A stretch of DNA of 64,000 nucleotides, taken from assembly GCF_900626135.1 (NCBI RefSeq), contig NZ_LR130785.1:1645241-1709240 (forward strand), given 5' to 3'. Below the pieces are notes generated by a model. That model saw only the letters and a program-made list of their open reading frames with translations, was not told the origin of the DNA and made no database searches. Numbering within the stretch: position 1 is the first letter of the stretch; each line of letters starts with the position of its first letter. Of this stretch, positions 4,583 to 63,205 are shown one piece after another. Made by a program: the position numbers and the translations under genes. Source of the stretch: Senegalia massiliensis. Lineage in GTDB: Bacteria; Bacillota; Clostridia; Tissierellales; SIT17.

Positions 4583-5962
4583 ATGAATGAATATACACCT
4601 ATTGAGATAGTAGAAAAATTAGATAACTACATTATAGGTCAAAAGAAAGCTAAACGTTCAGTAGCAGTTGCACTTAGAAACAGGTATAGAAGAAATAAAT
4701 TAAATGATGAATTTAAAGAAGAAGTTAAACCTAAGAATATAATTATGGAAGGGCCAACTGGAGTTGGAAAAACAGAAATAGCTAGAAGACTTGCAAGATT
4801 AGTAAATGCACCTTTTGTAAAAGTTGAAGCTACTAAATTTACTGAAGTTGGATATGTAGGAAGAGATGTAGAATCTATGGTCAGAGATTTAGTTGAAACA
4901 TCAATACGATTAGTTAAAAATGAAAAAATTTCTGAAGTATATAATAAAGCAGAAGAATTAGCAGAAAAAAGAATTTTGAAAATATTAATAAATGGACCTG
5001 AAAAAAAGAAAGAAAAAAACCAAAATCCTTTTGAAGCTTTCTTTGGTTCAACGAATAATGAAGAAGATAATGATGTTGATAGAAAAGATGATATTGGAGA
5101 TAGAAAAACTATAAAAAACAAATTGAAAAATAAAGAACTAGAAGATAAATATGTAGAAATATTAGTTGAAGAGACACATTCTCAACCTATAGGAATGATG
5201 GGAGCAATGGGGATGGATGATATGAATATGAATGATATATTTTCAGGAATACTACCTAAGAAAAAGAAAAATAGAAAAGTAACTATTAAAGAAGCTAGAA
5301 AAATTCTTGCTAATGAAGAAGCACAAAAGATGATTGATATAGATGATATTAATTCTATAGCCATAGAAAAAGCAGAAAATAGTGGTATTATATTTATTGA
5401 TGAAATTGATAAAATTGCAGCTAGAAATGGATCAGGACCTGATGTTTCTAGAGAAGGAGTCCAAAGAGATATATTACCAATAATAGAAGGTTCTACTGTT
5501 ATGAGTAAATATGGTCCTATAAAAACAGACCATATTCTGTTTATTGCTGCAGGTGCATTTCATGTTTCTAAGGTTACTGATTTAATTCCTGAAATTCAAG
5601 GAAGATTTCCTATAAGAGTAAAACTTGATAATCTTACACAAGATAATTTTAAAGAAATATTAACAAAACCTCAAAATGCTTTAATTAAACAATATAAGCA
5701 TTTATTGAAAACAGAAGGAGTAGATTTAATATTTACTGATGATGGAATTTCAGAGATAGCAAAGATAGCATTCTTAGTAAATGATCAAACAGAAAATATT
5801 GGAGCAAGAAGATTGTATACTATACTTGAAGAATTATTAGAAGAAATTTCTTTTGATGCATCTTTATATGAAGGCAAAGAATTTACTATTGATAGAAAAT
5901 ATGTAAATGAAAAATTAAAACATGATATAGAGCAAATTGATTTATCAAAATATATACTATAA
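4583..5962 (+). CDS. hslU: ATP-dependent protease HslUV, ATPase subunit HslU
   Basis: AAA+ unfoldase that feeds substrates to HslV. The 459-aa protein has Walker [10 protein letters not shown] at about residues 57-65, the pore-loop region [14 protein letters not shown], a charged I-domain insertion (about residues 130-240, with [16 protein letters not shown]), Walker [12 protein letters not shown], and the arginine-finger and sensor-2 region [12 protein letters not shown]. The C-terminal tail SKYIL is of the type that docks into HslV pockets. An intrinsic terminator begins at the stop codon. codY, which follows hslU in B. subtilis, is absent here. Confidence 0.96.
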
Positions 5963-5990
5963 AAAAGTAGCCCTTGGGCTACTTTTTTAT
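5961..5990 (+). terminator. Intrinsic terminator after hslU
   Basis: The inverted repeat AAAAAAGTAGCCC / GGGCTACTTTTTT is perfect, with a two-base centre that opens to a larger loop, and it ends in a run of T. It overlaps the hslU stop codon. The A-run on the left arm would also supply a U-tract on the other strand. It separates the dprA-topA-hslVU unit from the motility operon. Confidence 0.88.
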
Positions 5991-6061
5991 AGTAGGACTT
6001 AACTCCTATTTTTAAGTGTCATCTTTTTACTTTTTGTCATAAAAACTGGTATTTATGCCAT

Positions 6062-38425: not shown

Positions 38426-38470
38426 ACTTATTTAAATGGAGAACATTAAATGTTCTCCATTTAAATAAGT
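38426..38470 (+). repeat. Perfect 21-bp hairpin after tsf
   Basis: Left arm 38426-38446 (starting ACTTATTTAAATGG) and right arm 38450-38470 are exact reverse complements, separated by only TAA. It starts 3 bases after the tsf stop. The following bases are AAAATAAAAAAGG, so there is no downstream U-tract and a canonical terminator is doubtful; a stabilising 3' end or RNase III-type site is possible. Confidence 0.8.
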
Positions 38471-60694: not shown

Positions 60695-61966
60695 TTGTAT
60701 AATAAAACAAAATTGTCAAATGGAATTAGAATAATAACTGAAAATATACCATATGTAAATTCTATATCAATTGGATTATGGGTTGAATCGGGCTCAAGGT
60801 ATGAAAATAAAGATAATAATGGAGTTTCCCACTTTATTGAACATATTTTATTTAAAGGTACTAAAAATAGAACTGCCAGAGATATCGCAGAACAAATTGA
60901 TTCAGTTGGAGGACAGATGAATGCCTTCACTAGTAAAGAATGTACTTGTTTTTACATAAAAATACTAGATAATCACATTGATTTAGCAATAGATATTTTA
61001 CAAGATATGTTATTCAATTCAACTTTTGATACAAATGAGATAGAGAAAGAAAAAAATGTAATAATTGAAGAAATTAATATGTATGAAGATGCTCCAGAAG
61101 AAATAGTACATGATCTTTTATCAAATACTGTATTTAAAAAACACCCATTATCATTACCAATTTTAGGTAATAAGGAATCTATAACCAATTTAACTAAAGA
61201 GTTAATAATAGATTATTTCAAAAAGTATTATATTCCAGAAAATATTGTTATTTCTATTGTTGGAAACATAGATGAACAAAATATTTTAAAAACTTTAGAA
61301 AAAAACTTTGGAGTGTGGAAATCTAATAAAAAAAAGTTAACAAATAAATTGGTAAGTCCTACAATAAAAAGAAATATTATATATAAAGATAAAGATACTG
61401 AACAGCTTCATCTTTGTTTAGGTTTGGAGGGGTTAAAGCAATCTTCTAAAAATATATATTCTTTATTAGTATTGAATAATATCTTTGGAGGTAGTATGAG
61501 TTCTAGGCTATTTCAAAAAGTAAGAGAAGACTTAGGTATAGCATATTCTATTTACTCATATCCATCAACTTATAAAGATACTGGAATATTTACTATTTAT
61601 GCAGGTTTAAATCCTAAACATTTAGTTGATGTATCAAAAATAATTATTGATGAAATAAAGGAAATAAAAGCAAATATTTTTTCGGAAGAAGAAATATTTA
61701 AATCCAAAGAACAATTAAAAGGTAATTTCATATTAGGGTTAGAAAATACTTCTAGTAGAATGAGTTCCTATGGAAAGTCCGAATTATTAAATAGTAAAAT
61801 AGAAACACCTAATGAAATTATAAATAGTATAAATAAAGTAAATAAAAGTTCTATTAGAGAAGTAATAGATAATACTTTCGATATTGATAATATTAATATT
61901 GCATATGTAGGAAGATTAGATAATAAGAATATTAAATCAGAATTAATTAATATATATAAGAAGTAG
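60695..61966 (+). CDS. M16 family zinc peptidase (MlpA/YmxG-like)
   Basis: The 423-aa protein, counterpart of the pitrilysin-type peptidase mlpA/ymxG that follows ylxY in B. subtilis. Inverted zinc motif HxxEH is HFIEHILFKGTKNRTA, with the downstream glutamate in EKNVIIEEINMYEDAPEEI. The C-terminal half has SSRLFQKVREDLGIAYSIYS. The TTG start 60695 follows TTAGGAGAG. No signal peptide, so it is cytoplasmic. Its last six codons lie inside a 48-bp perfect palindrome. Confidence 0.93.
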   Translation: MYNKTKLSNGIRIITENIPYVNSISIGLWVESGSRYENKDNNGVSHFIEHILFKGTKNRTARDIAEQIDSVGGQMNAFTSKECTCFYIKILDNHIDLAIDILQDMLFNSTFDTNEIEKEKNVIIEEINMYEDAPEEIVHDLLSNTVFKKHPLSLPILGNKESITNLTKELIIDYFKKYYIPENIVISIVGNIDEQNILKTLEKNFGVWKSNKKKLTNKLVSPTIKRNIIYKDKDTEQLHLCLGLEGLKQSSKNIYSLLVLNNIFGGSMSSRLFQKVREDLGIAYSIYSYPSTYKDTGIFTIYAGLNPKHLVDVSKIIIDEIKEIKANIFSEEEIFKSKEQLKGNFILGLENTSSRMSSYGKSELLNSKIETPNEIINSINKVNKSSIREVIDNTFDIDNINIAYVGRLDNKNIKSELINIYKK

Positions 61967-61995
61967 ATAAATTTATCTACTTCTTATATATATTA
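61948..61995 (+). repeat. 48-bp perfect palindrome spanning the M16 peptidase stop
   Basis: The 24 bases 61948-61971 (starting TAATATATATAAGAAG) are the exact reverse complement of 61972-61995, with no spacer. The stop TAG is at 61964-61966, so codons for NIYKK and the stop form the left arm. No T-run follows on this strand. It would form a long hairpin in RNA and could cruciform in DNA. Confidence 0.9.
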
Positions 61996-62071
61996 TCATA
62001 AATAATGTTATCATAATTGATAAAGAAATATTATAAAAAATAAAACATATAATCTAATAGGAGGGAAAAAA

Positions 62072-63106: not shown

Positions 63107-63157
63107 TATAAAAAAATAGTATAATTTTTTATATTATGTTATAATTAATGACATAAC

Positions 63158-63187
63158 AAGGCTACTCCTTTGGAAAGGAGTAGCCTT
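63158..63187 (+). repeat. Perfect 14-bp hairpin upstream of ftsK
   Basis: AAGGCTACTCCTTT (63158-63171) / AAAGGAGTAGCCTT (63174-63187) with a GG centre. It ends 7 bases before the AGAGGTG ribosome binding site of ftsK. The following bases ATAATAAG are not a U-tract. Could be a tepA 3' structure or an ftsK leader element. Confidence 0.8.
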
Positions 63188-63205
63188 ATAATAAGAGGTG
63201 AAAAG

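Follow-up and report, generated by a model that had tools for sequence, protein, structure and literature searches.

A perfect 48-bp palindrome encloses the stop codon of an M16 peptidase gene of Senegalia massiliensis, and we consider it probable that the resulting 3′-end hairpin is a Rho-independent-type terminator set into the stop codon, the arms of which are kept matched partly by template switching. The palindrome lies near the end of the window, the stretch of 64,000 nucleotides that was analysed, and belongs to a genome-wide class of long symmetric gene-end hairpins; its treatment as a single odd object in a preliminary description of the same DNA was thus too narrow.

The segment equals its own reverse complement, with 24 + 24 bases and no spacer, and extends no further since a T stands on both flanks. 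Given the base composition of the window, 1.3e-8 such palindromes would be expected by chance in 64 kb, and no other fully complementary pair is as long among the 25 listed of 45 inverted repeats with a spacing of up to 200 bp. The exact symmetry, the negligible role of chance, the overlap with the last codons and stop codon, and the missing T-run 3′ of the + strand arm had all been described before and are confirmed here. The stem runs from 16 nt upstream of the M16 stop codon to 29 nt downstream, and has G-C pairs at only 3 of 24 positions; the 173-nt region has a folding z-score of -6.3 relative to shuffled sequences. The + strand continues 3′ of the palindrome with TCATAAATAA. Rfam covariance models gave no match at E <= 1 between positions 61500 and 62700, and among viral contigs 15 stretches fitted the pattern and no M16 relative was found. 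The M16 product carries the Pfam domains PF00675 and PF05193; the PRC-barrel gene that follows is presumably YlmC/YmxH. Coordinates are collected in the table.

Features of the window bearing on the M16 palindrome and its class (positions in the window)
Feature	Position	Strand	Remarks
Perfect stem of the same class, 19 bp	5955..5994		from the inverted-repeat list and sister alignment
Perfect stem of the same class, 22 bp, 1-nt spacer	38426..38470		3 nt past a stop codon; the sister species differs by one one-sided change
Peptidase M16 gene, 423 aa	60695..61966	+	listed start TTG; final codons and stop within the 5′ arm of the palindrome
Perfect zero-spacer palindrome, 48 bp	61948..61995		RNA of the + strand has a 22-bp stem and a 4-nt loop
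TAG stop codon of the M16 gene	61964..61966	+	inside the 5′ arm of the palindrome
Best U-rich stretch for termination, TTCTTATATATATTA	61981..61995	+	weak, within the 3′ arm; score 3.97
PRC-barrel gene, 90 aa	62072..62344	+	downstream, co-oriented; from the ORF list and domain search
Hairpin of the same class after a Clp-protease-like gene	63153..63192		GG spacer is CC in the sister species, an exact inversion

To describe the class, we took perfect stems of at least 16 bp with spacers of up to 10 nt in a 540-kb sample (19%) of the genome. This sample contained 64 such stems, against none in one Markov-3 copy. By simple ORF calling, 58 of the 64 had a gene 3′ end within 100 bp, 24 of these near two convergent ends; five more had no gene end nearby and one lay inside a gene. 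The stem overlapped the gene end in 50 of the 82 gene-end strands. When 46 stems from 400 kb were assigned to intergenic gaps, the 33 convergent gaps contained 15 of them, the 378 tandem gaps 24 and the 32 divergent gaps one, with six centred in an ORF, and convergent gaps were strongly enriched over tandem ones (Fisher p=9e-9). The T-rich tails of the class, with the interior of the 3′ arm also searched, scored a median of 4.88, compared with 3.57 (90th percentile 4.70) at random positions. Since the opposite strand of hairpins with one gene end scored 4.72, these hairpins look symmetric in their tails as well. Spacer-free stems made up 36 of 64 in this genome (G000), 30 of 49 in its nearest species (G003, with 95.6% DNA identity over 90 kb), 8 of 13 in G001 (presumed Anaeromonas gelatinilytica D2Q-14) and 5 of 10 in G002, these four being the genomes of the genus that we examined; the share in 19 other genomes of the order was 16 of 52.

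A long hairpin covers the M16 stop codon in all four genus genomes, although its sequence has been replaced. The nearest species has a perfect 48-bp palindrome, G001 a perfect 60-bp palindrome unrelated to that of G000, and G002 an interrupted stem. This recurrence refutes a fold-back artefact of sequencing or assembly, to which we give practically no credence: fold-back chimeras can yield perfect palindromes, but here a long hairpin is found in assemblies of four species, two of them besides G000 with exact palindromes, within continuous coding sequence and flanks. The preliminary description had also suggested asking whether relatives keep the pairing by compensatory changes while codons vary. 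Between G000 and the nearest species three pairs of the palindrome differ in both bases and no pair differs in only one, and the coding-side changes (TAT to TAC, AAG to AAA) are synonymous. They leave the C-terminal peptide NIYKK intact in the nearest species; in the other two genus genomes the peptide is different, so that hairpin and peptide end change together.

More widely, 27 of 105 distinct M16 loci had a strong uninterrupted hairpin near the stop codon, with G-U pairs allowed (0.7 expected), and in 19 of the 105, three of them from the genus, the hairpin overlapped the stop codon (0.3 expected). The remaining 78 had no strong uninterrupted hairpin near the stop, a count that includes G002, whose interrupted hairpin the uninterrupted-stem test misses. 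Among the 60 of 105 loci that were listed, several, for example L014, L016, L017, L018 and L021, have a T-run after the hairpin, and ordinary hairpin-plus-T-run terminators lie over the M16 stop codon in several relatives outside the genus. At the M16 site itself the tail scores were 4.45 in G003, 4.70 in G001 and 3.97 in G000, the last ranking 71st among the 82 gene-end strands of the 540-kb sample.

The conservation of hairpin sites extends past M16. Gene ends of G000 with a stem of at least 14 bp had a stem of at least 10 bp in G001 in 7 of 12 cases, compared with 10 of 116 ends whose stem in G000 was shorter than 10 bp; the corresponding figures for G002 were 9 of 12 and 5 of 89. Some of the kept sites carry unrelated palindromes, for instance the gene end at 1769255 when compared with G002, while others (1724385) retain a recognizable stem. 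The gene end at G000:C1:1769195-1769250 has a perfect palindrome with 28-bp arms, and G002 has an unrelated one with 23-bp arms, a turnover like that at M16.

A DNA-level element, either an operator for a symmetric protein or a cruciform, would account for the exact, spacer-free symmetry, which is commoner in the genus than in the 19 other genomes of the order. We nevertheless regard it as very unlikely, and set cruciform and operator aside as the main explanation because there is no conserved sequence. G000 and G001 share no sequence at the M16 site, divergent gaps account for only one of the 46 class members, and the palindrome has no copy elsewhere in the genome. The protein-binding site offered in the preliminary description is unsupported in its sequence-specific form, since the sequence has been swapped wholesale inside the genus and G001 carries an unrelated palindrome. 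A search of the genome for the same arm, also suggested there, was run on both strands with a 141-base query that included the flanks; it returned no copy and only four weak matches besides the palindrome itself. REP or another dispersed repeat is ruled out by this lack of genomic copies.

Two of the four weak matches span the palindrome, at 73% identity, with at least 19 and 21 mismatches to its 48 bases. Both show the same arrangement, a zero-spacer palindrome (arms of 15 and 17 bp) with a double TCATAA motif, and each sits upstream of another gene. At M16, two units of the TCATAA type, spaced by 15 bp, lie directly downstream of the palindrome, at 62008-62023 and from 61993. The symmetric motif TTATCATAATTGATAA, exact or with one mismatch, occurs at window positions 62008-62023 and at G000:C1:1644429-1644444 and 1820076-1820091; in all three places another TCATAA unit precedes it by 15 bp and a zero-spacer palindrome lies beside it. 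The gene downstream is the PRC-barrel gene in the window; at the other two places we take the genes, from their translations, to encode a ComM/YifB-type ATPase and a TypA/BipA-type GTPase. Comparable motifs are present after M16 in L009, L014, L016, L017, L021 and L022. The motif TTATCATAAWTGATAA beside the palindrome was not enriched genome-wide, with 8 sites at up to one mismatch and 10 for a reversed-pattern control.

To follow how the stems change, we compared 170 hairpins of at least 10 bp with the nearest species. Of these, 118 could be aligned and 52 could not be aligned to the portion of the sister genome compared; two of the 118 were dropped (stem identity below 0.6), leaving 82 at gene ends and 34 elsewhere. 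In the gene-end stems 1281 pairs were unchanged, 59 had changed on one side, 28 had become a different Watson-Crick pair through changes on both sides and 10 contained gaps, whereas independent change would be expected to produce 0.8 two-sided cases. Stems elsewhere had 382 unchanged pairs, 17 one-sided changes, two two-sided Watson-Crick changes and one other two-sided change. Starting instead from the 49 hairpins of at least 16 bp in G003, 43 of them alignable, we counted 24 two-sided Watson-Crick changes, 22 one-sided, two other two-sided and 22 gaps; three of 51 alignments (1519838, 1527679 and 1637285) look misaligned, so that one-sided counts are inflated in the comparison of hairpins of at least 16 bp. 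The stem at 5955-5994 combines several kinds of change, with one two-sided pair change, a TT spacer that has become AA, two one-sided changes and one gap.

Spacers of at least 2 nt were tested, together with three inner pairs, in 68 hairpins, of which 35 were identical and 33 changed. Among the changed spacers 22 fitted the direct orientation better, eight fitted the inverted orientation and three were ties, an excess of inversions over the 6.4% that random changes would give (p=0.0009). Two of the eight inversions are exact, that listed in the table and TTT to AAA at genome position 1287499, and two win by a single step in alignments with many changes. No such inversion can be seen at the M16 palindrome, as its spacer is zero.

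Template switching in quasipalindromes homogenizes arms and inverts spacers (PMC8604942). The joint change of arms that marks a homogenized quasipalindrome appears here both at the M16 site (three two-sided changes and no one-sided one) and in the class (28 against 0.8 expected). Paired changes and the excess of spacer inversions may thus be signs of template-switch homogenization.

Such paired changes might also arise by compensatory evolution alone, in which selection on the RNA for a stable stem favours a second mutation that mends each broken pair, with no template switching. This process is documented in Bacillus cereus terminators, where two-sided changes have been shown to arise by compensatory selection, both nucleotides have changed in 1.4-1.8% of AU/GC pairs, and conservation is higher in stems than in loops or at fourfold sites (PMC5381666). 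Transition-type switches here (22 of 30) come close to the AU-GC share of 79% given there (PMC5381666). The two-sided share of changed pairs in our gene-end stems, 28 of 87, is nonetheless larger than the roughly 13-24% in B. cereus, a figure derived from many strains on a tree rather than from one species pair as here (PMC5381666). Gene-end stems diverge about as much as flanks (0.042, compared with 0.049 in the 30-nt flanks of all 116 hairpins). One-sided changes in hairpins with one gene end produced GU pairs in six cases, AC in seven and other mismatches in 14, and this similarity of GU to AC, which gives no sign of a GU preference, fits a DNA-level process, although the number of cases is small. 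Pair restoration, moreover, cannot account for spacer inversions, two of them exact. We therefore think it unlikely, though worth serious consideration, that compensatory evolution acts alone.

Our preferred reading of the M16 site, a terminator-like hairpin with arms partly matched by template switching, runs as follows. The palindrome would form the 3′-end hairpin of the M16 transcript and would descend from an ordinary Rho-independent terminator, the U-tract of which has degenerated and been folded into the stem. A ribosome close behind the polymerase would mask such a hairpin at a stop codon. RNA polymerase probably runs ahead of the ribosome at the M16 end, so that the hairpin could form while the ribosome is still short of the stop codon; the polymerase would be released at the weak U-rich stretch, today the outer 3′ arm, leaving the mRNA capped at its end by the hairpin. 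Selection appears to hold a hairpin at the M16 stop rather than its sequence. During replication, one arm may sometimes be copied from the other by quasipalindrome template switching, which would carry a mutation in one arm over to the other and invert spacers; we propose that the arms match perfectly partly for this reason. Termination at this palindrome is a prediction and has weaker backing than termination at the class as a whole, owing to its poor U-tract. A stable hairpin stands at the gene 3′ end, as in Rho-independent terminators, but the stem is not G+C-rich; with no U-tract directly after the stem and a weak one in the 3′ arm, the element is best called terminator-like and not a canonical member of that group.

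The weak U-tract, together with a full-length Rho gene in the genome (618 bits), would also suit a hairpin that protects or processes the mRNA 3′ end, as a barrier to exonucleases or a site for RNase III, with transcription ended elsewhere, for example by Rho. Canonical hairpins with a T-run at the same place in several relatives, and the T-rich arms of the class in G000, speak against this role, which we judge rather improbable.

The abundance of spacer-free stems may be related to SbcCD, a nuclease that cuts hairpins in palindromes, although palindromes of 48-70 bp are short for known SbcCD cutting in E. coli. We sampled 23 genomes and called SbcD strong when a full-length match reached at least 140 bits, a threshold of our own choosing; nine genomes had a strong SbcD, and none was found in the other 14. 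SbcC follows this split, with long matches of at least 91 bits in the same nine genomes, weak ones (up to 38 bits) in 13 and none in one, while the SbcC cut-off was reached in none of the 23. The curated SbcD cut-off separates the genomes less cleanly, as a homologue of about 380 aa passes with its stretches summed in G002, G003 and G039, and fails in G000 and G001; of 100 genomes drawn from the whole order, 40 pass it. Strong full-length SbcCD is absent from the four genomes of the genus and from all nine stem-richest genomes sampled, a group (at least five long stems per 100 kb) that includes those four; weaker SbcD-like exonucleases are nevertheless present, and in three of the genomes they pass the curated cut-off. 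Stem density was associated with this absence (Mann-Whitney p=0.011; 0.040 with the genus counted once; 0.045 at G+C below 0.35), in groups that differ in G+C and from samples that are small outside the genus (35-120 kb). Five genomes without SbcCD (G006, G009, G013, G015 and G024) are also stem-poor. The link between long-stem richness and SbcCD absence was found post hoc among 23 genomes, with exceptions. We offer only tentatively, and hold to be doubtful, the broader idea that in a genus without canonical SbcCD template switching keeps rewriting terminators into perfect zero-spacer palindromes, which evolve as symmetric wholes and alter the final codons of the genes they end.

These gene ends offer a natural case in which selection can be told apart from mutation bias in how RNA hairpins are maintained: sister species have unrelated perfect palindromes at one and the same gene end, and two-sided changes are about thirty times as numerous as independent mutation would yield. 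If the SbcCD link were true, a repair enzyme would shape gene ends across a bacterial order, which could be tested with public genomes. Titles and abstract openings in the literature revealed neither spacer-free palindromic terminators nor a link to SbcCD, which is no proof of absence in print.

Compared with known systems, the palindrome resembles the Rho-independent terminators of Firmicutes in forming a gene-3′-end hairpin, in the convergent enrichment and stop overlap of its class, and in the homologous M16 ends with a stem and T-run; it differs in its AU-rich stem of 22-24 bp, its lack of a spacer and its degenerate U-tract within the stem. As in B. cereus terminators, stem pairs change together and the stem is kept, but the two-sided share is larger here, a small number of cases gives no GU preference, divergence is similar in stems and flanks, and some spacers invert (compare PMC5381666). 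Homogenized arms and inverted spacers are shared with quasipalindrome template switching, described for yeast genes (PMC8604942) and seen here in gene-end hairpins of two sister bacteria. Perfect inverted repeats of bacterial genomes are likewise reported to be enriched at transcript ends (PMC13155455, PMC6060812). The former, a survey of many genomes, gives a spacer of 4 as the commonest in bacteria, whereas a spacer of 0 dominates among the long stems here; the latter describes few long repeats upstream of E. coli stop codons, whereas many of the stems described here reach into the gene.
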